This document shows, piece by piece, positions 9,847 through 57,199 of a DNA stretch of 64,000 nucleotides (its first letter is position 1; each line of letters begins with the position of its first letter). The stretch is from a virus. The notes beneath the pieces are model-generated. The model saw only the letters and a program-made list of their open reading frames with translations. It did no database searches and was not told the DNA's origin. Location of the stretch: positions 1-64,000 of IMG/VR virus record IMGVR_UViG_3300029985_000042. The stretch is one strand, 5' to 3'. The translations under genes and the position numbers were made by a program.

Positions 9847-10935
9847 ATGATATTTAATACATTTGACGCAAATAATGACATAGTTACCGGACGTTCCCTC
9901 CGAGTATCAAGTGGGGTATGGCCAAATAGTGCCATGTCAATCACACAAAGTTCAATGGTATCCGATTTCTGGTCATTAACTGGTTCGGTAGGAACCCCAT
10001 CATACGGGACTAGCGTATATGATATACGCCGAACAATGTATTATTTGAATGTATTTCCAACTAGCAACGAATTTAATAATAATGACCCTTATGTTTCAAT
10101 TGCATATGGAAACATAAACGGAAATTTGGGAAGTGGTTCGTTTAACAGCGATGTTTCATCCAGTCAGGCATTCCCGGCCAAGGCAATATATACCCAATAT
10201 TCCAATTTACTATTGGGAGATACAAATACCAATACATTTTTCGTAAACAGTGGAAGCGTATCAATTGCCGCCAATGATATCTGGGCAATTTCATTTTCGT
10301 CATTTAAAATGAAAGACAATGTAGATGCGGGAGCCATCCAGTTTAGTTTGAGTGGGTCAAATGGAAACTTTACATTTATTGATGACTCACCGTATAATTC
10401 CACGGTTCAGACATCATACCAAATAATTTTGGGTAGCTTGACCTCACCTCCCAATTCTCCAACATATGGTGGGTATGGAGTATTTTTTCCTGCGTCTGGA
10501 ATCGTGATATTAAACGCCAGCGCAATCGCCGGTTTAGTCGGACTTAATACTGGGACATACCAATATTCGCCTGCACTATCATCCGTCGACTTTACTATAA
10601 ATCAATATGTATTATTCAACGCTATAACAGCATCTCCTAGCGGAATGAATGTTCAAATTAGTGAATTTGTGCCGTCAATTCAATATTACATACGAGTAAA
10701 AAACAAAGAGTTTAATTACAGTAACAATCCGACGTATGTATATGATGGAACCGATGGAATTCACCCGCCTGGGTATATTTACAATGCTAATTTCATAACT
10801 AACCCACAGACATATATTACTACTATTGGACTATATAATGACAGCAACGAATTAATTGCAGTTGCAAAACTAAGTCGTCCAATTGTGAAATCATTTAACT
10901 CTGAAGTTCTGTTAAAAGTCAGAATCGACACGTGA
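9847..10935 (+). CDS. Virion structural protein with AVAKL-type C-terminus
   Basis: A 362-residue beta-rich protein of tail-fibre-like composition. Its last ~40 residues (TIGLYNDSNELIAVAKLSRPI then VLLKVRID) match the C-terminus of the 781-residue protein ending at 15028 (VGLYDKNLELVAVAKLGTPI), a tail I associate with appendage proteins of T4-like jumbo phages. The stop is followed at once by a second, diverged copy of the last ten codons (see the 10936-11001 entry), so the 3' end appears to have been replaced when the downstream endonuclease gene was inserted. Function beyond virion structure is not evident. Confidence 0.6.
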   Translation: MIFNTFDANNDIVTGRSLRVSSGVWPNSAMSITQSSMVSDFWSLTGSVGTPSYGTSVYDIRRTMYYLNVFPTSNEFNNNDPYVSIAYGNINGNLGSGSFNSDVSSSQAFPAKAIYTQYSNLLLGDTNTNTFFVNSGSVSIAANDIWAISFSSFKMKDNVDAGAIQFSLSGSNGNFTFIDDSPYNSTVQTSYQIILGSLTSPPNSPTYGGYGVFFPASGIVILNASAIAGLVGLNTGTYQYSPALSSVDFTINQYVLFNAITASPSGMNVQISEFVPSIQYYIRVKNKEFNYSNNPTYVYDGTDGIHPPGYIYNANFITNPQTYITTIGLYNDSNELIAVAKLSRPIVKSFNSEVLLKVRIDT

Positions 10936-11001
10936 TTCTGAGGTATTAATAAAAGTTAGAATAGATAGTGTTTTCGAGAATCTCACGTATATTTATAAGG
11001 T
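10936..11001 (+). repeat. Duplicated remnant of the upstream gene's 3' end (endonuclease insertion scar)
   Basis: Bases 10940-10969 read in one frame as EVLIKVRIDS, matching EVLLKVRIDT at the end of the upstream gene (10903-10932). Differences are mostly at third codon positions. The remnant frame runs on to a stop at 11003-11005, overlapping the ATG of the endonuclease gene. This looks like the original 3' end displaced by a recoded copy brought in with the homing endonuclease. Confidence 0.75.
10988..10997 (+). promoter_or_regulatory. Late-type motif TATATTTATA
   Basis: TATATTTATA ends 4 bases before the ATG at 11002. It is one of at least sixteen such sites placed just upstream of genes in this window; interpreted as a late promoter. 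Confidence 0.5.
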
Positions 11002-12039
11002 ATGAATAACATTATAACTTGTAAATTATGCAATATATCGATTAATACTAGGTCATTTGGAAATCATGTATTAAAGATACACGGTCAAAGACATGAAGAT
11101 TATATCAAGAACAATCTGGAAGATTTCAAACATCTAAATTGGAAATTATGTATCGAGTGTGGAAAATTATGCAATTCTCGCTCTTCTAAATGTGGCACTT
11201 GCTATTCTAAAAATCATACTACGAATAATAAACCTATCCTATGTAAACACTGTGATAATTTAATCCACCCTAAGCAAATGTCACAACATTTGTTAAAAAA
11301 TCATAACATAAAATTCGTCGAATATGTTGCTGAAAATTTAAACGAATTCAAACAATTTGGTTGGTCTAATTGTGTAATTTGCAATAAAATATGTAAGGGG
11401 CATTCTAAAAAATATAACGAGCCAACTTGTTCTGCGGAATGTATGGGCAAATTGAGGGAAACTTGGACTGGCGGGAAATCTGCAATGTATGGAAAAACAC
11501 ATTCGGAAGAGTCAAATAAAAAAAATTCCGACTCTCATATAGGAAAAAAAATGCCAACTATAACTGGTATTTTAAATCCAATGAAAAGACTAGAAATACG
11601 GAAAATCATATCCGATAAAGCAAAAATTAGGCTGTCTATACCAGAAAACAATCCAATGTATGGAAAGAAACACACTCCTGAAGCAATTGAAAAAATATTC
11701 GGATATAGAGGAATGAATAAACTAGAATCTCGTGTCGCTGATATATTAAAATCACAAAATATAGAATATTATTATGGATTTTGTATTGATGAAGGACAGG
11801 AATGTAAAATTTACGACTTTAAAATTAAAGGAAAACCTATTATTTTGGAGATAGACGGAGATTATTGGCATGGAGGCCCCGGAGTGAAAATTCATTTTAA
11901 GAATGTAGAAAAAAATAAATTAAATGATAAATTAAAGAATGAGATGGCGGAAAGACGAGGATATAAAGTAATACGTTTATGGGAATCTGATATCAAAAAA
12001 GACTCGTCAATTATCCTCAAATCTCTTATTGGATTATAG
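11002..12039 (+). CDS. Homing endonuclease, EDxHD/Vsr-like with zinc fingers and NUMOD3
   Basis: A 345-residue protein. Two N-terminal zinc-finger-like modules (CKLCNISIN..FGNHVLKIHG, and CKHCDNLIHPKQMSQHLLKNH) precede NUMOD3-type DNA-binding repeats (NPMYGKKHTPEAIEK) near residues 170-230. The C-terminal nuclease core contains YDFKIKGKPIILEIDGDYWHG and ends KVIRLWESDI. This is the pattern of the Vsr-like EDxHD family (the I-Bth0305I type), which cuts DNA to promote spread of its own gene. It sits between two structural genes next to a duplicated 3' gene end, as expected for an insertion. It is a free-standing gene with its own late-type motif. Confidence 0.8.
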   Translation: MNNIITCKLCNISINTRSFGNHVLKIHGQRHEDYIKNNLEDFKHLNWKLCIECGKLCNSRSSKCGTCYSKNHTTNNKPILCKHCDNLIHPKQMSQHLLKNHNIKFVEYVAENLNEFKQFGWSNCVICNKICKGHSKKYNEPTCSAECMGKLRETWTGGKSAMYGKTHSEESNKKNSDSHIGKKMPTITGILNPMKRLEIRKIISDKAKIRLSIPENNPMYGKKHTPEAIEKIFGYRGMNKLESRVADILKSQNIEYYYGFCIDEGQECKIYDFKIKGKPIILEIDGDYWHGGPGVKIHFKNVEKNKLNDKLKNEMAERRGYKVIRLWESDIKKDSSIILKSLIGL

Positions 12040-12054
12040 TTATATTGTGTATAT

Positions 12055-12681
12055 ATGATTAAAAATATAAATCCACAAAATATAAGTCTGACACCTATAG
12101 TAACGACTAAGCCATGGAATTTACACAACGTAGATAACAGCGATTTAATATTGGTTGATACTGGGTCTATAGACGATGTTTCAATTGCATTGGAATATGT
12201 GGATTATATAAATTATAGCGGCACTGGTCCGTTTCCTATAAATTCAGATTGCAGTATAGCTCTCGAACAACAATCGTCGGCACTTGTTAATTTTCAGGTT
12301 GGACAGAGTGGAAGTGGTCATTTTAACGTGAATGTAGAGCCTAAGAACGGGGACGGAACATATACCCGCATGATATATTCTCAGATACAAAATACATTCT
12401 ACAACTCAACTAACAATCCAGTAAATATATTCGGACTTGATAATATAGACTTTGGACTTTCGAGGACTAATCGACACGTCACGGATAATTTTTTACTTCT
12501 TAACATTCCACGGATTATATTTGGAGACAAAATTTTAGCCTCTAGTGTAACGCTTGGAAATCTTCCATTAGATGATAATATTTCAATATATGATGATGGA
12601 TATGGAAATATGATGGCAGGAAACTCAATATTCTACAAAATTCAGGAAGTTGGGGATTTTAAAAATGTTATAAACTATTAA
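12055..12681 (+). CDS. Virion structural protein, unknown function
   Basis: A 208-residue protein starting 15 bases after the endonuclease stop and 1 base before the next structural gene. Sequence such as ALVNFQVGQSGSGHFNVNVEPKNGDGTYTRMIYSQIQNTFYN and the N-terminal NISLTPIVTTKPWNLHNVDNSDLILVDTG are beta-rich with no enzymatic motif. Position in the baseplate/tail cluster points to a virion component. I do not recognise a specific family. Confidence 0.55.
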   Translation: MIKNINPQNISLTPIVTTKPWNLHNVDNSDLILVDTGSIDDVSIALEYVDYINYSGTGPFPINSDCSIALEQQSSALVNFQVGQSGSGHFNVNVEPKNGDGTYTRMIYSQIQNTFYNSTNNPVNIFGLDNIDFGLSRTNRHVTDNFLLLNIPRIIFGDKILASSVTLGNLPLDDNISIYDDGYGNMMAGNSIFYKIQEVGDFKNVINY

Positions 12682-15398: not shown

Positions 15399-15797
15399 AT
15401 GACAGATATGGGACATTGGGTTACAACAATTGAAATGCCAGATGATGCTATCGGGTTTATATATAAAATTCATAATAAAATAAGTGGTCGGAAATATATC
15501 GGTCGAAAATTGACGGTATTTAAGACCTGTAAAAAAGCACTGAAGGGGAACAAGAACAAACGGCGGGGAACTCGTGAAAGCGATTGGAAAATATATTGTG
15601 GGTCTTGTGTAGAATTACAAGATGATATTGTGAAACTTGGCAAAGAAAATTTTATGTTTGAAATACTTCAGTGGTGCAATTCTAAATTAACTCTGAATTA
15701 TGCCGAGGTAAAGGCCATCATAGATGCGAATGCAATATTCGATGGGAATTATTATAACAAATACGTCGGCTGTAGATTAGTCAACAAAAACAAATAA
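15399..15797 (+). CDS. GIY-YIG endonuclease-like protein
   Basis: A 132-residue protein. GFIYKIHNKISGRKYIGRK (residues 19-37) carries the GIY and YIG elements, and a second conserved part reads DWKIYCGSCVELQDDIVKLGKENFMFEIL. GIY-YIG nucleases include phage Seg/Hef-type homing enzymes, but this one is nearly only the catalytic domain, without a DNA-binding tail. The N-terminal MTDMGHWVTTIEMPDDA may be regulatory. It follows the tail terminator and precedes the primase. Confidence 0.7.
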   Translation: MTDMGHWVTTIEMPDDAIGFIYKIHNKISGRKYIGRKLTVFKTCKKALKGNKNKRRGTRESDWKIYCGSCVELQDDIVKLGKENFMFEILQWCNSKLTLNYAEVKAIIDANAIFDGNYYNKYVGCRLVNKNK

Positions 15798-17010: not shown

Positions 17011-17279
17011 TTACTAAATTTGTATTATGTTGGTTATTGATATCGGTTTCATTTGAATGTTTTGGTGATTATTTTGAGCCGACATTAAATTTGGTAATAG
17101 AGTGGGATGAGCCTAAACATTATATAAATAATAAAATTCTTAGAGATAAAGATATAAATAGACAATCCGATATTATAAACCATTTACAGTGTGGGTTTAT
17201 ACGAATTAAAGAACGTGAATTTGACGAACAATTGACAATACAAAAAATAAATGAATATATTAAAAACAAATCAAACTAA
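17007..17279 (+). CDS. Small Vsr/DUF559-like nuclease fragment, probable endonuclease remnant
   Basis: A 90-residue frame. NLVIEWDEPKHY, LRDKDINRQSDIINHLQCGFIRIKE matches the C-terminal catalytic core of phage Vsr/DUF559-type nucleases, where such a core usually follows a long DNA-binding region. Here only this core remains, behind a hydrophobic start (MITKFVLCWLLISVS) that may be a chance reading rather than a true signal peptide. It overlaps the primase stop by 4 bases and the next gene by 29. Most likely a decayed homing endonuclease; a small active nuclease cannot be excluded. Confidence 0.5.
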   Translation: MITKFVLCWLLISVSFECFGDYFEPTLNLVIEWDEPKHYINNKILRDKDINRQSDIINHLQCGFIRIKEREFDEQLTIQKINEYIKNKSN

Positions 17280-20200
17280 CATTAAGTATGTAATCCATAT
17301 GGGGGACATACATTGTAGGAATAATTCACGAATAGACGAATTTAAAATTGTATTTAATAATTTCTTTGACAGTATTAAGCATCTACCTAAAGATGAAACT
17401 ATTATCGTTAATTGTGGCGATACTTTCCATCAAAAAACATCAATGGAGCCGGAAGGTTTGCAATTAGTAAAAGATTTATTTGTTGGATGCTCCGATTTAT
17501 TTCCTACGATTATTATTCCCGGCAATCACGATGGAAATGTAGCTTCCAAAACTAGAATGGATGCTGTTACTCCTGTAATAGAATTATTAAATAGAAATAA
17601 TATTTATTACTTGAAAGAATCGGGGCTATATGGATATGCTAACATATTGTTTAATCATATGTCAGTATTCGATGAGCCTGAGAAGTATATTTTGGGGAAA
17701 GATATACCATCAGTATATAGAAATAAATATGAGAGAATTATAGGACTATTCCACGGAGCAGTTGACCAGTCAATGTCGGATACTGGCCACACTCTAGAAA
17801 ATCCTAAAATAATGCTGCCACTATTTGATAACCACCATATTTTTATGCTCAGTGATATTCATTTAGCCCAAAATTTACAAGAATATGATTATCAATACGA
17901 TAAGCCAATAGTTCGGTATTGTGGAAGTTTTTTACAGCAAAATCACGGTGAGTCGTCGGACAAGGGTTATTCTCTATGGGATTTATCCGACATGTCGTAT
18001 ACCCATCATAATTTAAAAAATGATTTTGGATTTTATACGATTGGAATTGACCATGGAAATTTGGTCACTGATATATCACACATGCCAAAAAATGTAAGGT
18101 TGAGAGTTATATGTAAAGAAACAATTCCATCCGAAGTAAAACATATAATTTCAAAGTTAAAAGAGACTCATACTATAATAGAGAGTTCTTTCATCCGAGA
18201 GACGGCTGATGTGGCTACGACAAATAAGGTCGTATCAGATATAAATTTAAAAAATATATTTAATGTGGGATATCAATCGGAATTGATTCGAAAACATTTA
18301 TTAGAAATAACGCCTGATATATCGGTTGATAGACTGGATAAGGTCTTATATATCAATCAAATCATAAATAAAGAATTGGGACTCTCAGACCAATCTAGAA
18401 CGTCGAGATATAAATTAATTAAGATGGAATGGGAGAACATGTTTAGTTATGGCGAAGATAACTGGATAGATTTTACAAACGTCAATGGATTGTATGGGAT
18501 ATTTGGAAAGAATAGAACTGGAAAATCATCTATATTCTCATGTATATTATTTTGCTTGTTTGATAAGTGTTCGATGGCATCAAAAGGGGAAGATATAATC
18601 AACGAGCAAAAATCATCATTTAAATGTAAGTTGGAATTTGAAATTGACGGAGTTCATTATTTCATAGAACGAAAAGGAACCGCCGGACGGACTGGGACCG
18701 TAAAAGTGGATGTTCGATTTTGGAAATTGGAAAATGGGGAAGAGATAAGTCTACATGGAACGGAACGCAGCGACACCAATGAAATAATACGTGGGTATGT
18801 TGGGACGTTTGATGATTTCATACTGACATCGGCATATTTCCAATTTGGAAAACATAATTTATCGTTTATTGACATGGGTAAAAGTGACCGTAAAGATATA
18901 CTCGTTAAATTTATGGGAATTGATGTTTTTGATAAACTATGTAATATTGCGAATGAAAAGAAAAAAGAAATTAATTCCGAGTTAAAAATTCACAGAGGGA
19001 AAGAATATCAATTGGAATTAGTCCAGATGGAAAACGCATTAAACCATGCCGTAGCCCTACATTTGGAATTGTCGGGTGAACTTGATAAGACCAAGATAAC
19101 ACTGGCCGATGTAAACCAAAAAATACAAGCGGAGACATTAAAACTAATTAAACTAGACTCTAATATTCCAACTAATATAGAACATCTAAAACTATCCAAG
19201 GAACGGGTTGAGGCCGCATTGAATATTGAAGAAAAGAATGTATCCACATCAAATATTAAAGTTAAGCGATATGCTCGATATATCGAGATGGTTGAACGTA
19301 GACTTAAAAGAATAGAAGACCTAAACCTAATCGAAAATCATACAAAATATAAGTTACTACTGGATAAAATTTCGTCGGCGAAGAAGAAAATGGATATTAA
19401 GAAGATAGAAATTAAGGGAAAATTGGACAAGGTTGCCAAATTAAAGGCACATAAATACGACCCCAACTGTAAGTTTTGTATTGACAATGAATTTGTGAGA
19501 GATGCATCGTCCTGCCAAGAACAACTAAAACAGGATAGAATTTTGGCCAGAGACTTGGTTGAGAATTTGGAGGCATTGGAGGCGGAATTTGAGACCGTCA
19601 AATGGGTGGACTCTAAATATGGTCTTTATACTAGATTATTAAATAAACGAGGAGAATTAAAAGACATACAACAACTAACATCAACCTTCATACTTGATAA
19701 GAGTAACAACATATCAAAAAATAAAGATATACTAGCGAATACAAATAATAATATTGCCATTTATACTCGAAATTTAACCTCGGTTGAAAACAATAATTCG
19801 GTAAACTTAATATTGTCGTCGCATAAAATAGAAGCGTCTTCATTGGATGTTACCATTCAGAAATTTAATACTCGGTTAACTGAATTATATGGTAAAATTC
19901 AAGTGTTTAAAAATAACATAGTAAATCTGAAATCTGTAATCGAGGTTATTAAAAATAAAGAGACGGAATTGGATGGTTATGAGAAATATATCGAAGCCGT
20001 CGGGCGTGATGGAATTCCATATAAAATAATATGTAATGCCATTCCTACAATAGAGCGAGAAGTTAATGATATATTAACTCAGATTTCAGATTTCACTCTA
20101 AAATTGGAAGATGATGATAATGATATAATACCATATATTTGCAGTGATACGGGGAAACATGTCATTGAATTATGTTCAGGAGCCGAACGATTTGAAATGG

Positions 20201-20451
20201 AATTTGCAATTAGAATTGGATTAATTATGACCTCTAATCTTATAAAATGTGAAAATTTTTATGGCATTGACGAAGGTTTTGGGGTCTTAGATATTGATGG
20301 ATTATCTTCTATGAGCGTATTATTTTCTATAATTAAGCAGAAGTTTTCTTCCACATTCATAATCAGCCACCAAAACGAAATAAAGGATTTGGTTGATTGT
20401 TCGTTAGATATTAAAAAAGTTGATGGATTTTCGCAAGTTCAACATGGTTAA
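17251..20451 (+). CDS. Fused Mre11-Rad50 type nuclease/ATPase (gp47-gp46 fusion)
   Basis: A 1066-residue protein joining two normally separate T4 recombination subunits. Residues about 8-270 are an SbcD/Mre11 metallophosphoesterase: HMGDIHCRNN, VNCGDTFH, IIPGNHDG, and a later LSDIHLA. Residues about 390-1066 are an SbcC/Rad50 ATPase: Walker A GKNRTGKS (419-426), a long charged coiled coil, a zinc-hook CKFC (C740, C743), signature ELCSGAERFEMEFAIRIG, and Walker B FYGIDEGFG followed by the switch histidine in IISHQ. In T4 gp46/gp47 resect DNA ends for recombination-dependent replication. The frame is continuous with no stop between the parts. The start is uncertain because it overlaps the preceding frame by 29 bases, but the next ATG lies inside the first metal motif. 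Confidence 0.88.
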   Translation: MNILKTNQTNIKYVIHMGDIHCRNNSRIDEFKIVFNNFFDSIKHLPKDETIIVNCGDTFHQKTSMEPEGLQLVKDLFVGCSDLFPTIIIPGNHDGNVASKTRMDAVTPVIELLNRNNIYYLKESGLYGYANILFNHMSVFDEPEKYILGKDIPSVYRNKYERIIGLFHGAVDQSMSDTGHTLENPKIMLPLFDNHHIFMLSDIHLAQNLQEYDYQYDKPIVRYCGSFLQQNHGESSDKGYSLWDLSDMSYTHHNLKNDFGFYTIGIDHGNLVTDISHMPKNVRLRVICKETIPSEVKHIISKLKETHTIIESSFIRETADVATTNKVVSDINLKNIFNVGYQSELIRKHLLEITPDISVDRLDKVLYINQIINKELGLSDQSRTSRYKLIKMEWENMFSYGEDNWIDFTNVNGLYGIFGKNRTGKSSIFSCILFCLFDKCSMASKGEDIINEQKSSFKCKLEFEIDGVHYFIERKGTAGRTGTVKVDVRFWKLENGEEISLHGTERSDTNEIIRGYVGTFDDFILTSAYFQFGKHNLSFIDMGKSDRKDILVKFMGIDVFDKLCNIANEKKKEINSELKIHRGKEYQLELVQMENALNHAVALHLELSGELDKTKITLADVNQKIQAETLKLIKLDSNIPTNIEHLKLSKERVEAALNIEEKNVSTSNIKVKRYARYIEMVERRLKRIEDLNLIENHTKYKLLLDKISSAKKKMDIKKIEIKGKLDKVAKLKAHKYDPNCKFCIDNEFVRDASSCQEQLKQDRILARDLVENLEALEAEFETVKWVDSKYGLYTRLLNKRGELKDIQQLTSTFILDKSNNISKNKDILANTNNNIAIYTRNLTSVENNNSVNLILSSHKIEASSLDVTIQKFNTRLTELYGKIQVFKNNIVNLKSVIEVIKNKETELDGYEKYIEAVGRDGIPYKIICNAIPTIEREVNDILTQISDFTLKLEDDDNDIIPYICSDTGKHVIELCSGAERFEMEFAIRIGLIMTSNLIKCENFYGIDEGFGVLDIDGLSSMSVLFSIIKQKFSSTFIISHQNEIKDLVDCSLDIKKVDGFSQVQHG

Positions 20452-22659: not shown

Positions 22660-24294
22660 ATGATACCAGAACCTAAAAAACAATTGACCCAGAAGGAACT
22701 TTTAATATCAGAATACAAGAAATGTGCCGCATCTCCCATATATTTCATGAAGAAGTATATTAAAATTCAACATCAATTAAAAGGGACGATAAATTTTAAC
22801 TTATTCCCATTTCAGGAAGATACTTTACAACAATTAGCGGATAATAAATTTAATATTATTTTAAAATCAAGACAGATGGGGATTTCAACGTTGGTGGCGG
22901 CATATGCATTATGGATAATGATATTTAATAGTGATAAAAATATTCTTATCATTTCAATCAAAGAGGCAACATCTAAAGAATTAATATCTAAAGTAAGATT
23001 TGCTAATGACCACTTGCCATCATGGTTGAAAATACAATGTGAAGAAGACAATAAACTATCTTTAAAATTCAAAAATGGGTCAAACATCCGAGCCGTATCA
23101 TCAAGTGGCGATGCTGGACGTTCTATGGCAGTATATTTATTGATAATAGATGAGGCGGGATTTATCGATGGAATTTCTGATATTTGGGCATCTTCATGGA
23201 GCACGTTGTCAACGGGTGGTAATGCGGTATTATTATCGACTCCAAATGGAATTGGTAATTGGTTTCATAAAATGTGGGTTGACGCCGAAAATAAGACCAA
23301 TAGTTTTAATTCAATCCGATTAAAGTGGGACTTGCATCCGGAAAGAACTCAAACATGGAGAGACGCTCAAACTAAAGAATTGGGAGCAGCATTAGCCGGA
23401 CAGGAGTGTGACACGGATTTCTTGGCTTCTGGAAATAATGTGATTAATTTAGAAACTATTGATTTTTATAAAGAAACATATAAGACAGAACCAGTTGAGT
23501 GTCGTGAATTGGATAGAGCACTTTGGATTTGGCAATATCCAGACTATAATAATACATATATAATATCAGCAGATACAAGCCGTGGGGACGGTGGAGATTA
23601 TCAGGCATGTCATGTCTTAGATGCTGTTACATTGGAACAATGTGCTGAATATAAGGGTCAAATATCAACTAAAGAATATGGAAATTTGTTATGTTCGTTG
23701 GGAAATTATTACAATAACGCATTATTGGTAATTGAACGAGAAAATACAGGCTGGGCAGTTATTCAACAAGTAATAGATAGAGATTATCCGAACTTGTTTT
23801 ATATGACGAAGGATTTAAAATACGTAGACCCCGAAACTCAAGTATCCAATAATTTTTATTCGGAGGAAAAAAAGGCAACTCCCGGATTTTCAACTACCAT
23901 GAAAACTCGTCCAATTATTATTGATAATTTTATCAAATATATGAATGAACGAGAATTAAAGATACGGTCTAGTAGAACGTTGGCTGAAATGGAAACGTTT
24001 ATTTGGAAAAATTTTAAGCCACAAGCCATGCAAGGGTATAATGACGATTTAATTATAAGTTTATGTATTGGACTTTGGATACGTGATACCGCACTCAAAT
24101 TAAGACAACAAGGAATTGATTTAACAAAAGCGTCATTATCACATATAAATAAAACCAAGCTGGATACTACTCCCGTATTTAAAGCACAAGCAAGAAATAC
24201 TGCCCAACAGTCGTGGGAAATGTCAACTGGAAAATTGCCAAATCGACCGTTAGACGGAACTAATATGGAATCATTGCGGTGGCTCTTAGGTTAA
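22660..24294 (+). CDS. 17: Terminase large subunit, T4 gp17-like
   Basis: A 544-residue DNA-packaging motor. The ATPase domain has Walker A LKSRQMGIST (residues 69-77) and Walker B LLIIDEAGF (D164, E165), followed by the coupling motif LLSTPNG. The RNase H-like nuclease domain begins IISADTSRGDGGDYQ, with D305 the probable first metal ligand, and continues LVIERENTG. It cuts concatemers and pumps DNA into the prohead through the portal encoded next. Length is slightly below T4 gp17 (610 residues). No intein or insertion is seen here. Confidence 0.92.
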   Translation: MIPEPKKQLTQKELLISEYKKCAASPIYFMKKYIKIQHQLKGTINFNLFPFQEDTLQQLADNKFNIILKSRQMGISTLVAAYALWIMIFNSDKNILIISIKEATSKELISKVRFANDHLPSWLKIQCEEDNKLSLKFKNGSNIRAVSSSGDAGRSMAVYLLIIDEAGFIDGISDIWASSWSTLSTGGNAVLLSTPNGIGNWFHKMWVDAENKTNSFNSIRLKWDLHPERTQTWRDAQTKELGAALAGQECDTDFLASGNNVINLETIDFYKETYKTEPVECRELDRALWIWQYPDYNNTYIISADTSRGDGGDYQACHVLDAVTLEQCAEYKGQISTKEYGNLLCSLGNYYNNALLVIERENTGWAVIQQVIDRDYPNLFYMTKDLKYVDPETQVSNNFYSEEKKATPGFSTTMKTRPIIIDNFIKYMNERELKIRSSRTLAEMETFIWKNFKPQAMQGYNDDLIISLCIGLWIRDTALKLRQQGIDLTKASLSHINKTKLDTTPVFKAQARNTAQQSWEMSTGKLPNRPLDGTNMESLRWLLG

Positions 24295-24323
24295 AAGAAA
24301 TAGCAATTAATCAACAAAAACAA

Positions 24324-24333
24324 TATATTTATT
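24324..24333 (+). promoter_or_regulatory. Late-type motif TATATTTATT
   Basis: TATATTTATT ends 5 bases before the ATG at 24339, supporting that start over an upstream in-frame start at 24279. Confidence 0.5.
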
Positions 24334-24338
24334 ATAAT

Positions 24339-27300
24339 ATGGCATTAAATACAAACCAACAGATGAGCGATGATATTCTTGATATTAAGAAACAGTCATT
24401 ATATGCAAGATTAAAGACGTTATTTTCATCAGATACGATTGTTCGTAATGTCGGTGGGAAAAAGTTATTAGTTAAGGATACCGACCATTCTCAAATGGCA
24501 ACGGATAGGAATTCTTTACGAGATAGATTTAATAGAATTCGTTCCACGGCATATAATGCATATACCCGTGACTTTACATTATCATATCAAGCGGCAAGAA
24601 TGGATTTGTTTCGTGATTATGATTGTGTAGGTCCCGATACTATAATTCCATTACCTGATGGGTCTAAACCAACAATTAAAGAATTAACGGAAAAATATAA
24701 AGATAAGCCCCAAGAGAGATTTAACGTATTCTCGTATGACCACGTTTCTAAATCAATAAAGATTGGGAAAGCATTTCATCCTAGATTAAAGGGTCCTCGT
24801 GAGGGGTGGAAGGTTACATTTGACAATGGACAGTTTGTTATTGGTAGTGAACGTCATCCATTTATGATGAGAAATGGAGAATATAAGTTAGTCAAGGAAT
24901 TAAAAGTTGGAGAATCGGTCATGCCATTCTATCAATTTGAATATGGATATAAAAATCATGGATTTAAACGATATCGCCGACTATATAACTTCAGTAAAGG
25001 GTGGCAATCGGAGCATAAGATTGTGGCTGAACAGTTTAATAGAAAATTAGAAAAAAATGAAGTTGTTCATCATAAAAATTTTAATGGAGCCGACAATTCT
25101 CCTGAAAATTTAGAAATAATGGACTGGAAAGAACATAAAGCGTTTCATTCTAAGCATAACAAAGAAGTATTGTGGGGCAGCGAGAATTACGATATCCAAC
25201 TTAAAAAATTAAAGGAAAATCCAAATTATATAAATCGAAAGATTCATCATTGGAACGGGGAAAGATTGGGAGAAAACAACCCATTTTATGGTAAAATACA
25301 TTCTAATGAGTCAAATATTCTTAGGTCAAATTCCTTAAAAGAAGCATATAAAGATAGAGACCAAACAGTTGATAAAAATCCAAATTTTAGAACTGATTTA
25401 ACAATTGACGTATTAAAAATTAAAGCTACCGAATATTATAAAGAGAACGGAGAACTTTATATTTGGAAATTAGTTGACAGTATTGGATGTGATTATTCAA
25501 CTATTCAATCTAGATTAAAATATAATAACTATACACGGAACACTTTTAAAGAAGAAATTACATCAACGTTAAATCATAAAATAGTATCGATAGAATCTGT
25601 GGGGATGATTGACGTATATGATGTTACAGTCGACAAATATCACAATTTTGCAACTGATAGTTGCTTCGTGAGTAATACGATGGATATGGACCCAATCCTA
25701 TCAAGTGCGCTTGATATTTACGCCGATGAAACGGTGACTATGAATGAAATGGGTAAGATTGTAACTGTTCATTGCGAAAACAATAATATAAAAGAAATAT
25801 TAACCAACTTATATGAAGAAATATTACACGTTGATTTTAATTTGTGGTCATGGACTAGAAACATGTGCAAATATGGAGATTTCTATCTAAAGATTTATAC
25901 CAATCCAGAATATGGGGTATACATGGTTGAGCCAATATCGGCATATAACGTTGAACGAATTGAAAATTCAGACCCATATAATAAGAAGTATGTGAAGTTC
26001 CAAATTCGACCAACTGATACATCCCAAGCCGAAGTCCTCGAAAGATATCAGATGTCGCATTTTAGGTTGTTGAGTGACAGTAATTTTTTGCCGTATGGTA
26101 AGGGAGTAATTGAGGGTGCTAGACGAGTATGGAAACAATTGTCGCTATTGGAAGACGCTATGTTAATCCATCGTGTCGTCCGTGCTCCAGAGCGTCGTAT
26201 TTTTTATACCGACATCGGAAATATCCCACCGGCTGAAGTTGATAATTACATGCAGAAGCTGATGGATAAGATGAAAAAGGTTCCATACATGGACGAACGC
26301 ACGGGTGAATATAACTTAAGATATAATCTTCAAAACATGCTAGATGATTATTATATCCCAGTTCGTGGTGGCGACTCCGGAACTAAAATTGATACTTTGT
26401 CGGGAATGGAGTGGACGGGAATTGACGACGTTGACTATGTCAAGAATAAAATGTTTGCGGCACTCAAAATTCCAAAGGCATTTTTGAGTTTTGACGAGGC
26501 TGCCGGCGGGAAGGCAACATTAAGTCAGGAAGATTTGAGGTTTGCTAGAACTATTCAACGAATTCAGAAGATAATCGCAAGCGAGCTTGAAAACGTTGGT
26601 ATTATACATTTATATGCTCAGGGATATCGAGACGAAAGTTTAATAGATTTTAAACTTGAACTAACTAATTCAAGCACTATATTCGAGAAAGAAAAAATTG
26701 AGATATGGGCGGATAAAACTGATTTGGCATCTAACATGATGGATAACAAAGTATTTCCCCGTGAATGGATATACAAAAATGTGTTCAAAATGTCTGATGA
26801 TGATACTGAAAAAGTAATGAAGGGATTAGTTGAAGATTCCAAGCAGAAATATAGGCTGGAGTCTATCGAAACTGAAGGAGATGACCCAGCGAAGCCGTTT
26901 AAGAAAATTGGTGGTGCTGGTGGTGCTGGTGGTGAACATGGCGATAAGGGAGGTCATGGAGGCGGTGGCGGTGGTGGCTTGGGAGACTTAGGAGGTCTTG
27001 GCGGAGATACCGAAGCGGAACCGGATGGGGAGGAGACGCCAGAAGGTGAAGTTAATAAGAAGGGGATACCAGAGGAACCTGTCGATGGTAAACCAGAGGA
27101 TATAGTAAAAGAAGAAAGAGACCAATCAGGAGAACACGACGCCGGAGACCATCCATTTGGCGAGGACCCGCTCGGACACAATGAATTGAGTAGGAAGCCT
27201 AGAAATAATAGTGAAGGCAAGCGAAAGAGTGTATTGTATCATAATTTTGAGAATGACTCTCCATTTTCACTTGAAGAAATAAAAGGTCAATTGAAGCCTG

Positions 27301-27446
27301 ATTTATCCAATAAAAAAAATAAGAATGACCTCATTACCATGCTAGGAGAATTCTTCGTTGATAATAAGATAAATACAGCGGAAAATTTAATAGTCGAAAA
27401 CACCACAACCTCATCATTAATGGATGAAAAAAACATAAAAGAGTAA
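24339..27446 (+). CDS. 20: Portal protein, T4 gp20-like, interrupted by an intein
   Basis: A 1035-residue precursor; removing a 351-residue intein leaves about 684 residues. The extein parts join as RMDLFRDYD / TMDMDPILSSALDIYADE, which matches gp20-type portals (DPILSSALDIYADE is the conserved core). Downstream, GVIEGARRVWKQLSLLEDAMLIHRVVRAPERR and IPKAFLSFDEAAGGKATLSQEDLRFARTIQRIQK are diagnostic portal motifs. The portal forms the dodecameric ring at the capsid vertex. After residue ~885 a Gly-rich, then acidic, extension (GGAGGAGGEHGDKGGHGGGGGGG) is longer than in T4. The ATG at 24339 is chosen because it follows a late-type motif and avoids overlapping the terminase. Confidence 0.9.
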   Translation: MALNTNQQMSDDILDIKKQSLYARLKTLFSSDTIVRNVGGKKLLVKDTDHSQMATDRNSLRDRFNRIRSTAYNAYTRDFTLSYQAARMDLFRDYDCVGPDTIIPLPDGSKPTIKELTEKYKDKPQERFNVFSYDHVSKSIKIGKAFHPRLKGPREGWKVTFDNGQFVIGSERHPFMMRNGEYKLVKELKVGESVMPFYQFEYGYKNHGFKRYRRLYNFSKGWQSEHKIVAEQFNRKLEKNEVVHHKNFNGADNSPENLEIMDWKEHKAFHSKHNKEVLWGSENYDIQLKKLKENPNYINRKIHHWNGERLGENNPFYGKIHSNESNILRSNSLKEAYKDRDQTVDKNPNFRTDLTIDVLKIKATEYYKENGELYIWKLVDSIGCDYSTIQSRLKYNNYTRNTFKEEITSTLNHKIVSIESVGMIDVYDVTVDKYHNFATDSCFVSNTMDMDPILSSALDIYADETVTMNEMGKIVTVHCENNNIKEILTNLYEEILHVDFNLWSWTRNMCKYGDFYLKIYTNPEYGVYMVEPISAYNVERIENSDPYNKKYVKFQIRPTDTSQAEVLERYQMSHFRLLSDSNFLPYGKGVIEGARRVWKQLSLLEDAMLIHRVVRAPERRIFYTDIGNIPPAEVDNYMQKLMDKMKKVPYMDERTGEYNLRYNLQNMLDDYYIPVRGGDSGTKIDTLSGMEWTGIDDVDYVKNKMFAALKIPKAFLSFDEAAGGKATLSQEDLRFARTIQRIQKIIASELENVGIIHLYAQGYRDESLIDFKLELTNSSTIFEKEKIEIWADKTDLASNMMDNKVFPREWIYKNVFKMSDDDTEKVMKGLVEDSKQKYRLESIETEGDDPAKPFKKIGGAGGAGGEHGDKGGHGGGGGGGLGDLGGLGGDTEAEPDGEETPEGEVNKKGIPEEPVDGKPEDIVKEERDQSGEHDAGDHPFGEDPLGHNELSRKPRNNSEGKRKSVLYHNFENDSPFSLEEIKGQLKPDLSNKKNKNDLITMLGEFFVDNKINTAENLIVENTTTSSLMDEKNIKE
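24624..25676 (+). mobile_element. Intein with HNH homing endonuclease in the portal gene
   Basis: This 351-codon insertion begins at Cys (CVGPDTIIPLPDG, block A) and ends SCFVSN before extein Thr. Splicing motifs include GSERHPFM (block B, with the TxxH-like histidine) and VYDVTVDKYHNFAT (block F). Between them lie an HNH nuclease (EVVHHKNFNGADNSPENLEIM) and a NUMOD3-like piece (GENNPFYGKIHS). It is placed just before the conserved DPILSSALDIYADE core, a typical intein site. The penultimate residue is Ser rather than the usual His. Confidence 0.9.
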
Positions 27447-31053: not shown

Positions 31054-32748
31054 ATGCAAATAAAAGAATGGATACTAAATAACTTATACAGTAATAATAA
31101 ATTAATCTCCAAACGGTGTAGATTGGAGTGGTTTCATAATAACCGGTATACGTCCAGATATGATGAAATTGTGATGAAGACCAACTTTCTAATGGATGAG
31201 AGTGTAACTTTGGGACAGAGGATTTGGCATATTATAAATAAAAAATATGAAATGCCAAAATGTTTAAACCCTGAATGTAACAATAACACTTCATTTATAT
31301 GTTTGTCGATTGGATATTTAAATACCTGCTGCAATCGGTGTGCTCAAAAAAATCCAACTACAATATCAAAAATAAAATCTACAAACTTAAAAAAATATGG
31401 AACAGAATACGGGCTACAGTCTGAATATGTGAAGCAAGCTGGTAAATCTACATTATTGGATAAATATGGGGTTGATAATATATCTAAGGCAGATGGAATT
31501 TCTAATAAGAAAAAAGAAACATGTAGAAAAAACCATGGAGTTGATTGGATTGTTCAAAATAGAAAATTTATAGAAGATATAGTATTTGATAGATATGGCG
31601 TAAAAAACGTTCAACAAATTAAATCAATTGCAGATAAAAGAGTAACAACCCGTCGTAAGATATTTTATAATAGTTTGTTTACTGGAGATAGATTAAAATT
31701 ACTAGCAACTCCGCTATTTACCGAAGAAGAATATATAACCTCCGGTCTGTTTAAAAAATATAACTTCAAATGTAATGTCTGTAATACCATATTTGAAGAT
31801 TGTTTGGAAGATGGGGATTTGCCAAGATGCACTGAATGTTATAAAGGAAGTTCTATATTTGAAAAAGAAGTTGGGGACTTTATAAAAACGTTTATATCTC
31901 CATCTGATATAATAGAGAATGACAAAAAAATCCTTGGCGGATTGGAATTAGACTTATATATTCCGTCAAAAAATATTGCGATTGAATGTGATGGTTTATT
32001 TTGGCATGGGGAAATCGGTGGTGGTAAGACTAAGACATATCACATTACTAAGACCAATAAATGCGAAGTAAAAAATATTAGATTAATTCATATATTTGAA
32101 GATGAATGGGTTAATAATAAAGAATTAGTAAAATCCAAATTAAAACATATACTTGGAAGCAACGTATCTGCCAGAATTCATGCTAGAAAATGTATAATAA
32201 AAGAAATATCCGATAATTCTTATGTTGATTTCGTAAATAAACACCACATTCAAGGAGCCGAAAAAACTTCATGTATTCGACTTGGAGCATATTATAACGA
32301 TATATTAGTTGCAGTATCTACATTTGGAAAATTACGAAAGTGTCTTGGCCAAATATCTAAAGATAGAGAATATGAATTATATAGATTTTGTATCGACACA
32401 TCTTATATTATATCCGGTATCGGAGGTAAGTTAATGTCTCATTTTATACAAACATATAATCCATTAAAAATAACATCATATGCCGATAGACGCTGGACAT
32501 CAACTAGTAAGAACATATATTCCAAATTAGGATTTAAATTAGTGTCCAATACAGTCCCAAATTATTGGTATTTTGGAAAACGAAAAAATTATAAGAGATA
32601 TCATAGATTTAACTTTAGAAAAGACCAATTATCTGCCACATTACCAATATTCGACCCATCATTATCGGAATGGGAGAATATGAAAAATAATAAGTGGGAT
32701 AGGATATGGGATTGTGGAAATATTAAGTATGAATTGATTATTTCTTGA
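31054..32748 (+). CDS. Homing-type endonuclease with KYGVDN repeats and GNAT-like C-terminus
   Basis: A 564-residue protein. After a Cys-rich segment (CLNPECNN, TCCNRCAQKN) come four repeats of the LKKYGTEYGLQS / LDKYGVDNISKA type (about residues 107-195) and a CxxC pair. The nuclease core (about 270-370) shows GGLELDLYIPSKNIAIECDGLFWHGE and RLIHIFEDEW, the Vsr-like EDxHD pattern. Residues about 380-530 (LGAYYNDILVAVSTFGK, YRFCIDTSYIISGIGGKLMSHF, YADRRWTSTSKNIYSKLGFKL) look like a GNAT acyltransferase fold, a companion domain I recall from other phage homing proteins. It splits the protease from the following late gene and has its own promoter. Confidence 0.75.
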   Translation: MQIKEWILNNLYSNNKLISKRCRLEWFHNNRYTSRYDEIVMKTNFLMDESVTLGQRIWHIINKKYEMPKCLNPECNNNTSFICLSIGYLNTCCNRCAQKNPTTISKIKSTNLKKYGTEYGLQSEYVKQAGKSTLLDKYGVDNISKADGISNKKKETCRKNHGVDWIVQNRKFIEDIVFDRYGVKNVQQIKSIADKRVTTRRKIFYNSLFTGDRLKLLATPLFTEEEYITSGLFKKYNFKCNVCNTIFEDCLEDGDLPRCTECYKGSSIFEKEVGDFIKTFISPSDIIENDKKILGGLELDLYIPSKNIAIECDGLFWHGEIGGGKTKTYHITKTNKCEVKNIRLIHIFEDEWVNNKELVKSKLKHILGSNVSARIHARKCIIKEISDNSYVDFVNKHHIQGAEKTSCIRLGAYYNDILVAVSTFGKLRKCLGQISKDREYELYRFCIDTSYIISGIGGKLMSHFIQTYNPLKITSYADRRWTSTSKNIYSKLGFKLVSNTVPNYWYFGKRKNYKRYHRFNFRKDQLSATLPIFDPSLSEWENMKNNKWDRIWDCGNIKYELIIS

Positions 32749-55171: not shown

Positions 55172-57199
55172 ATGAATGATAAAAAAAGAATAGTAATAAA
55201 TAAACCCCTTACTAAAACATGTGATATATGCCACAATGATTTCTCATTATATTCATTTTCGAGTCATATAAAACATTTACATAAATTAACGTCGGATGAG
55301 TATGCTACTAAATATGGAGAATTTCGGCAACCTAAACGAGAAAAATCAAACCGAATAATAAATAAAATAACATGTCAACTATGTAATGTAGAATTCTCCT
55401 CGGTTGGGATGTTCACACATCTCAGAGATACTCATAATACAACTCCTGATGATTATACGACACAATTTGGAGAATACCGTCCGTCCAAGATACGACAAAA
55501 AGAATATGTTGGTAGACTCGAAACAACGAACAAAGAAGACCATCAAATTTGTTTAATATGCAATCAGCCATTTCCATCCGGAAATTTACTTGGATATCAT
55601 GTAAAAAATATTCATAATATTAATAAAAAGGATTATATAATGGATTATGTATTTAAAGGTGTTCGGACTTTATGTGGATGCGGATGTCAACGAAAAGTCA
55701 AGTTATTAACATATCATCCATATAAGGTAGATTTTATATCGGGGCATAATTCTGTTGGAGAAGGCAATGCAATGTTTGGGAAACATTTTTCAATAGAAAC
55801 AAAAAAGAAAATGTCGTTGAAGGCAATTGATAGAATTAACACCCAAACATTTGTAAAAACTGATACTAAGCCAGAATTGGAATTTAAATCTATATTAGAT
55901 AAATTACAAATCAATTATATCCACCCATATACTGTCGATTTGGGTAAACGTCATGCGTCGATTGATTTTTATCTTCCCGATTATAATATGCTAATTGAAG
56001 TTGATGGTGAGTATTGGCATCCTAAAGATTTTAGTAAATTAAATTTTCATACAATTTCCAATATTATATCAGATGGCGAACGTAAAGGATTGAAAAATCT
56101 ATATAGAATTAGAGAATTTGACATGGCTAAATTTATGGAGTGTGCCGCAACTAAAGAATTGGCAATTGAGTATATTAAAACAAATAATATCATATTTAAT
56201 CCGGAATTAAGATATAAGAAACCGATTATAAATAAAACATACTTTCAAGAATGCCTCTTGAAAAAGGGGAAGGAATATGTAAAATCATTTAACTGGATAC
56301 TTCGAAAATTCATTCGAACATTCCAACCTGAATTACCTTACCCTGATTTGGAAGAAAATTTGCCTGATATATTATCTAAACTATCAAAGATGGATACGTC
56401 TAAGCCATATAATCCAGAGACAAAAGAATTTTCCAATAATATAAGTGTAGTGGGACATAATTATTTAAAGCATTATTTTCATTCATATTGGGGAAGTAAA
56501 TTTAATGGTAATCCCTCGCCAAAGGAGGCTTGGTTAGATGATAAAATAATGCAGGAAGTTATTGATTATCGAATTGGATGTAATACGAGTGGGGAGGTAT
56601 ATGATTTTAGTTTACATCAATGTGTGAGAGGATTGAGTGCTCGAAGAATAAGTGTATCTTTTTTTAAACCGGCGTTGGCGGCTTCTATTTATAAAACTTA
56701 TTTGGGAGATATAACTAATCCAGTGGTATTAGACCCATGTTGTGGATTTGGGGGTAGATTGTTAGGATTTAAGAGCCAATATCCAGATGGAAAATATATT
56801 GGATGTGAACCTAATGTTGAAACATATAATGAATTACAAACACTAATTAAAAATGGTAATTGGGAGGATAGTGTTGAAATATATAATTGTAAATTTGAAG
56901 ATTTTGTATTTAATAACAATTATAAATTTGATATGATATTTACAAGTATTCCGTATTATGATGTTGAAATATATTCTAATAATACCGAATACAAATCGTT
57001 TGAAGAATGGAGAAATACATTTATAAACTCGATTGAAAATTGTAAATTATATTCTTCCAATGTATATATTAATTTGCCGGTTGAATTATGTAATTCGTTA
57101 GGATGGTCTGATAAGGTAGAATCATATATTATATCAAATAGAAGTCATTTTGATAATAAAGAAGGTAAGAAAATGGAGCCGATTGTTAAGTTGTCTTAA
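55172..57199 (+). CDS. Fusion of zinc-finger EDxHD nuclease and methyltransferase-like domain
   Basis: A 675-residue protein. Three C2H2-like zinc fingers lie at about residues 17-37, 68-88 and 127-148 (CDICHNDF..HIKHLHK pattern, each followed by an EY..KYGE-type tail), then a NUMOD3-like piece (GEGNAMFGKHFS). The nuclease core spans 232-325: TKPELEF, ASIDFYLPDYNMLIEVDGEYWH, YRIREFD, the Vsr-like EDxHD pattern. Residues about 430-675 resemble the two SPPY proteins: GNPSPKEAWLDD, FFKPALAASIYKTY, motif I VLDPCCGFGGRLLGF, then FDMIFTSIPYYDVEIYS, where SIPY replaces SPPY, so activity is doubtful. It has its own promoter after the capsid terminator. A homing enzyme that captured a modification domain, or a restriction-modification-like element, are both possible. 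Confidence 0.7.
   Translation: MNDKKRIVINKPLTKTCDICHNDFSLYSFSSHIKHLHKLTSDEYATKYGEFRQPKREKSNRIINKITCQLCNVEFSSVGMFTHLRDTHNTTPDDYTTQFGEYRPSKIRQKEYVGRLETTNKEDHQICLICNQPFPSGNLLGYHVKNIHNINKKDYIMDYVFKGVRTLCGCGCQRKVKLLTYHPYKVDFISGHNSVGEGNAMFGKHFSIETKKKMSLKAIDRINTQTFVKTDTKPELEFKSILDKLQINYIHPYTVDLGKRHASIDFYLPDYNMLIEVDGEYWHPKDFSKLNFHTISNIISDGERKGLKNLYRIREFDMAKFMECAATKELAIEYIKTNNIIFNPELRYKKPIINKTYFQECLLKKGKEYVKSFNWILRKFIRTFQPELPYPDLEENLPDILSKLSKMDTSKPYNPETKEFSNNISVVGHNYLKHYFHSYWGSKFNGNPSPKEAWLDDKIMQEVIDYRIGCNTSGEVYDFSLHQCVRGLSARRISVSFFKPALAASIYKTYLGDITNPVVLDPCCGFGGRLLGFKSQYPDGKYIGCEPNVETYNELQTLIKNGNWEDSVEIYNCKFEDFVFNNNYKFDMIFTSIPYYDVEIYSNNTEYKSFEEWRNTFINSIENCKLYSSNVYINLPVELCNSLGWSDKVESYIISNRSHFDNKEGKKMEPIVKLS

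Follow-up and report, generated by a model that had tools for sequence, protein, structure and literature searches.

The DNA analysed here, referred to as the window, is a stretch of 64,000 nucleotides from a virus record that holds 67,512 bases in all. On its plus strand, a putative structural gene of the baseplate region, S (9847–10935), encodes a protein of 362 amino acids for which Pfam gave no match; its relatives at 28–33% belong to Flavobacterium, Microcystis and Rhodothermus phages, and a gene located 5' of it (156–1961) matches the 'baseplate wedge subunit' phrog_219. The working 3' end of S, SEVLLKVRIDT (copy A; 10900–10932, plus strand; codons TCT GAA GTT CTG TTA AAA GTC AGA ATC GAC ACG), is read in frame with the gene and ended by the TGA at 10933–10935. 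Copy B (10934–10966, plus strand) is a displaced S end, D-SEVLIKVRID, in the +1 frame, and its first GA provides two bases of the S stop codon TGA; from 10934, this frame reads GAT TCT GAG GTA TTA ATA AAA GTT AGA ATA GAT AGT GTT (D SEVLIKVRID SV). Further along the plus strand are a leader (10965–11016) with a possible hairpin over the start codon of the next gene and a TATTTATA late-promoter-like motif (10990–10997; called by eye only), a homing endonuclease gene (HEG; 11002–12039; 345 amino acids) that starts 35 bases past the end of copy B, and the next structural-region gene, D (12055–12681).

The original prediction that the S end EVLLKVRIDT is read again after the stop codon as EVLIKVRIDS, with mostly synonymous changes, was confirmed. 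Copies A and B share 23 of 33 bases, and among the 11 codons compared three are identical, six differ synonymously and two nonsynonymously, so that synonymous changes account for six of the eight altered codons. Shuffling the 75 bases downstream gave no match as good in 20,000 trials, and S is the only open reading frame in the window with a strong repeat of its own end just downstream (all frames of at least 60 amino acids compared).

The HEG protein consists of CxxC...H repeats, a NUMOD3 motif and a C-terminal Vsr/I-Bth0305I-like domain. Pfam matches comprise NUMOD3 (7e-10) and DUF559 (0.0035, under its cut-off). While a PDB sequence search with the HEG profile gave no match, a Foldseek search with the AlphaFold model (pLDDT 71.5 and pTM 0.35 for the whole model) matched the C-terminal domain to I-Bth0305I (3r3p; TMt 0.71) and Vsr (1vsr), and the domain is thus predicted to have the Vsr-type catalytic fold. 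The HEG is a separate reading frame between the conserved genes S and D and is missing from close relatives; from this presence or absence at a fixed site, we infer that it cleaves site-specifically and homes. No HEG relative was found in the cultured phages of the collection. The gene occurs with or without an extra N-terminal CxxC...H repeat of ~75 amino acids, as seen when the window (11002–12039) is compared with loci L154, L155, L162 and L183. Elsewhere, the window encodes a SegE-type GIY-YIG endonuclease-like gene (15399–15797), an apparent fusion of SbcD-like (gp47) and SbcC-like (gp46) recombination subunits in a single frame (17251–20451), a T4-like portal protein gene with an in-frame intein (24279–27446; residues ~123–464) carrying an HNH domain and NUMOD3, a 564-amino-acid homing endonuclease (31054–32748) and a frame weakly matching the C-terminal part of the HEG (55172–57199).

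Displaced ends in related phages

Related loci were taken from scans for close and distant S relatives and for HEG relatives; a search of genome contigs gave no S relatives. In insertion-free loci, S has a single end and is followed after 1–68 bases by D. The order S (with copy A), copy B, HEG and D is found in the window, L144 (=L002), L154, L155, L162, L180, L183, L242 (=L071), L250 and the distant L188 and L191. In the fixed register defined by the window, 10 of 16 HEG loci (window excluded) had a copy B score above the highest one among 24 insertion-free relatives (Fisher p 9e-6), and the combined shuffle p was 5e-18 in HEG loci versus 0.73 in insertion-free loci. A generic test on HEG loci fetched with a C-terminal HEG profile, which shares some contigs with the fixed-register test, found the gene's own end repeated behind the stop codon (p <= 0.02) in 16 S-type and two tail-tube loci of ~58 testable ones, as against 2 of 43 HEG-less S loci. 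Together, the shuffles and the insertion-free controls rule out chance or motif paralogy as the source of copy B. The results also support the predicted tie between a former gene end and a homing endonuclease, as copy B is present in HEG loci and insertion-free relatives have one end only.

The 16 S-type loci with a repeated end use several reading registers, which implies several independent joints. In L250, two displaced ends stand in tandem with the working end upstream of both, and L190 has a single S end, from which the frame continues into the element, and may represent a primary state. No copy B was detected in HEG loci whose upstream end is of the KDFTKEAL type or in L315–L317, so copy B is not required. 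It could be speculated that copy B is translated by +1 frameshifting that extends S, since in the window it is open in that frame and begins at the stop codon. Yet, this idea is highly improbable, as copy B contains stop codons in L180, L155, L242, L154, L162 and L158 and its frame differs among loci.

Several loci have copy B without an intact HEG: L153 and L177 retain HEG fragments, what is left in L152 and L158 are short scraps of the HEG C-terminus recognised by eye, and L173 has both ends with no HEG, copy B being followed only by an element-like leader. In form, L173, L152 and L158 are relatives that carry both copies without the insertion, which would speak against the original prediction of an insertion scar; they look like HEG loss instead, since L173 keeps the element leader and L152 and L158 keep HEG scraps. 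In addition, a TnpB-family gene takes the place of the HEG behind the displaced S end in L143 (=L001; L001:4677-5423; phrog_506, 9e-6, partial match) and in L164:2996-4054 (OrfB_IS605, Cas12f1-like_TNB), where the trace of copy B is weak (p 0.057), as if this gene had replaced the HEG, or the reverse, at a shared site. On the other side of S, a second endonuclease gene is found just upstream in L002:3448-4014 (EndoVII/HNH-like), L071:1251-1802 and L180 (2456-2986), overlapping the S start in L002 and L071, so that these loci have a nuclease gene on either side of S.

The pattern recurs behind a second gene. In L389 and L353, the HEG family lies behind a tail tube gene (phrog_4542) whose end is repeated (FDRAILLF as FDKAILLF and MDYCVLNF as LDYCVLW, respectively; p 0.0002 each), a third tail-tube locus, L360, is suggestive (p 0.09), and none of 67 tail-tube relatives used as controls showed such a repeat. 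As it is seen in numerous relatives and also at the tail tube gene, the displaced end looks like the footprint of repeated invasion that spares the host gene.

The joint between the two ends and the origin of the working end

The S stop codon is other than TAA in 11 of 17 HEG loci, whereas it is TAA in all 24 insertion-free loci (those with an S–D gap of <= 50 bases). It is mostly a TGA at the joint between copies A and B, composed of the T ending a Phe codon and the GA of the Asp codon that begin copy B, (TT)T-GAC/GAT, and this Phe-Asp pair is the F-D of the native FDxELLIKVRLDF. At its other side, copy B ends at the Asp codon of RLDF-stop and the element leader follows (GAT-AGTGT...), a boundary that, judging from the sequences, marks the old lodging point of the element. 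The joint itself displays a short TTT(T)GA-like match, which would favour slippage and thus a tandem duplication of the S end that happened once, long ago, was neutral and had no connection with the endonuclease. Such a duplication is nonetheless very improbable, as copy B is nearly missing in the 43 HEG-less S loci, and the several registers, the stacked ends of L250 and the recurrence behind the tail tube gene also argue against it.

The most direct view of the working end comes from L242, which carries the HEG, and the empty L237. Here, S is ~85% identical in bases up to SRPA and only 56–60% over the last 16–20 codons, and high identity resumes at the start codon of D; within this stretch, VKSFDQELLIKVRLDF in L237 is replaced by FKDFSSELLIKVRLDF in L242, ELLIKVRLDF being the same as protein yet recoded as DNA. 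Terminal identity drops by 0.30 in this pair (-0.30), by -0.32 in L164/L159, -0.235 in L153/L149 and -0.24 between the window and L145, its nearest HEG-less relative (terminal 48 bases of S), against a null of -0.005 +/- 0.084 with a minimum of -0.163. The drop is absent in L154/L159 (-0.013), L250/L149 (+0.045) and L158. Hence, by sequence comparison, copy A is clearly a foreign replacement in L242, is also foreign in L164 and L153 and is probably so in the window, where this rests on one relative, L145, and it looks native in L154, L158 and L250; co-conversion of copy A appears to be variable. Counted by hand, window copy B matches the L145 end at 23 of 33 bases and copy A at 19 of 33. The end of L148 matches copy A at 24 of 33 and copy B at 23 of 33, taken as equal. 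At ~30 bases, copy B is too short for a lineage tree, and identities within and between A and B copies, taken over 27 bases, did not discriminate among sources of the individual copies B.

These data bear on a strict model, as known from fungal mitochondrial mobile ORFs (mORFs), in which the element always brings copy A and copy B is the displaced end of the invaded phage itself. The L242/L237 and L153/L149 comparisons favour it, as do window copy B set against L145 and the two ends of L153, where copy B is of the native type FDQE and copy A of a KDFSSE type that, among the loci compared, is confined to those with a HEG or a scar. However, it is rather unlikely to apply throughout, given the native copy A of L154, L158 and L250. 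Moreover, after a single insertion the displaced end is found past the endonuclease gene, as in Glomus (PMC3630166), and copy B is upstream of the HEG in every locus that has it. The functional replacement end foreseen by the original prediction therefore stands for L242, probably stands for the window and fails for loci with a native-looking copy A, and the simple insertion that would leave the old end behind the HEG does not fit the observed order.

Instead, we favour, with a probability of about two in three, that copy B is a former S 3' end belonging to and travelling with a free-standing HEG element between S and D. The association of copy B with the HEG, the order A-B-HEG, the variable copy A, the persistence of copy B after HEG loss, the stack and the second gene are taken as support. 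In phages that lack the HEG, the endonuclease would cut S at its conserved 3' end. Its own gene is placed directly behind a truncated S end (copy B, which breaks off with the Asp codon of RLDF-stop), with a full working end upstream that would have been joined at the short TTT(T)GA-like match; in many loci, the first bases of copy B would thereby form the new S stop codon. As the element moves, break repair would copy copy B, the HEG and a variable length of copy A, the latter sometimes being replaced by the donor end through co-conversion and sometimes kept as the recipient's own. Such variable replacement fits T4 homing, which co-converts flanks (PMC2988022). A rare event may add a further end and produce a stack, and copy B would afterwards decay as protein and stay conserved as DNA.

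A possible present role of the displaced end

Between HEG loci, copies B have a base identity of 0.65, compared to 0.34 at fourfold sites of the HEG, 0.47 at its third positions and 0.31 for shuffled sequence. At equal base identity, amino acid identity is 0.44 for copy B and 0.74 for copy A (codon-position swap test p 0.04). Copy B thus seems conserved as DNA rather than as protein and may now be a binding site. It lies just before the leader hairpin, and in relatives its end merges with this hairpin over the HEG start codon; the hairpin is strong in L242, L183, L154 and L180 (z -3.4 to -6) and weak in the window (z 0.24). In T4, the start sites of several HEGs are covered by hairpins, and I-TevI represses its own gene via an operator that resembles the site it homes to (PMC2988022). 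Taken together, base conservation, the leader hairpin and the I-TevI precedent make a candidate operator role plausible, and it may tentatively be proposed that copy B at present works at the DNA level: the endonuclease would bind it as a decoy or operator version of its homing site and so repress its own gene. This proposal concerns the present role of copy B and is compatible with its origin in the element. Yet, repeated renewal of copy B from conserved gene ends could also hold base identity high, and copy B is missing from some active-looking HEG loci. A broader conjecture, doubtful at present, is a phage HEG class specialised on the extreme 3' termini of genes for virion proteins, namely S and tail tube, that adds ends serially and keeps the displaced end as a putative operator or binding site. 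If true, the scar of invasion would double as the element's regulator. The locus would also allow a direct test of whether a displaced target site may have been put to regulatory use.

Comparison with known homing systems

The literature searched, which covered few subscription papers, gave no case of a gene end duplicated next to a HEG in a phage, and the words 'duplicate' and 'remnant' are absent from a review of T4 HEGs (PMC2988022). The elements described here share with the T4-like free-standing HEGs (seg, mob; PMC2988022) an intergenic position beside conserved genes, an expected co-conversion of flanks and, in relatives, a hairpin and late-promoter-like leader. However, the cut made by the free-standing enzymes of T4 is usually far away from the gene that encodes them (PMC2988022).

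If the favoured reading holds, the locus illustrates how a selfish nuclease can strike the indispensable coding end of a virion gene and still spare its host, a problem for which most documented cases so far come from fungal mitochondria. Puzzling exchanges of gene ends between phages would also find an explanation, and footprints of past homing would become available, also after loss of the nuclease. With regard to the enzyme, the C-terminal domain fold is shared with the Vsr-like I-Bth0305I (EDxHD type). I-Bth0305I is intron-encoded; the HEG differs in being free-standing and in having NUMOD3 and CxxC...H repeats.

Finally, fungal mitochondrial mORFs swap the carboxy-termini of genes, as in Allomyces atp6 and Glomus atp6, atp9, cox2 and nad3, with the native displaced end beyond the endonuclease gene (PMC3630166). 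Common to both systems are an endonuclease gene at the 3' end of a gene, two forms of this end that differ mostly by synonymous changes and, in some cases, a foreign working end. In the phage elements, the displaced end instead follows the working end and precedes the endonuclease gene, the enzyme belongs to another (Vsr-like) family than the LAGLIDADG and GIY-YIG enzymes of the fungal mORFs, a native working end is common and stacks of displaced ends can occur. We do not file the phage elements as members of the fungal group of carboxy-terminus-replacing mORFs; their mode of working is similar.
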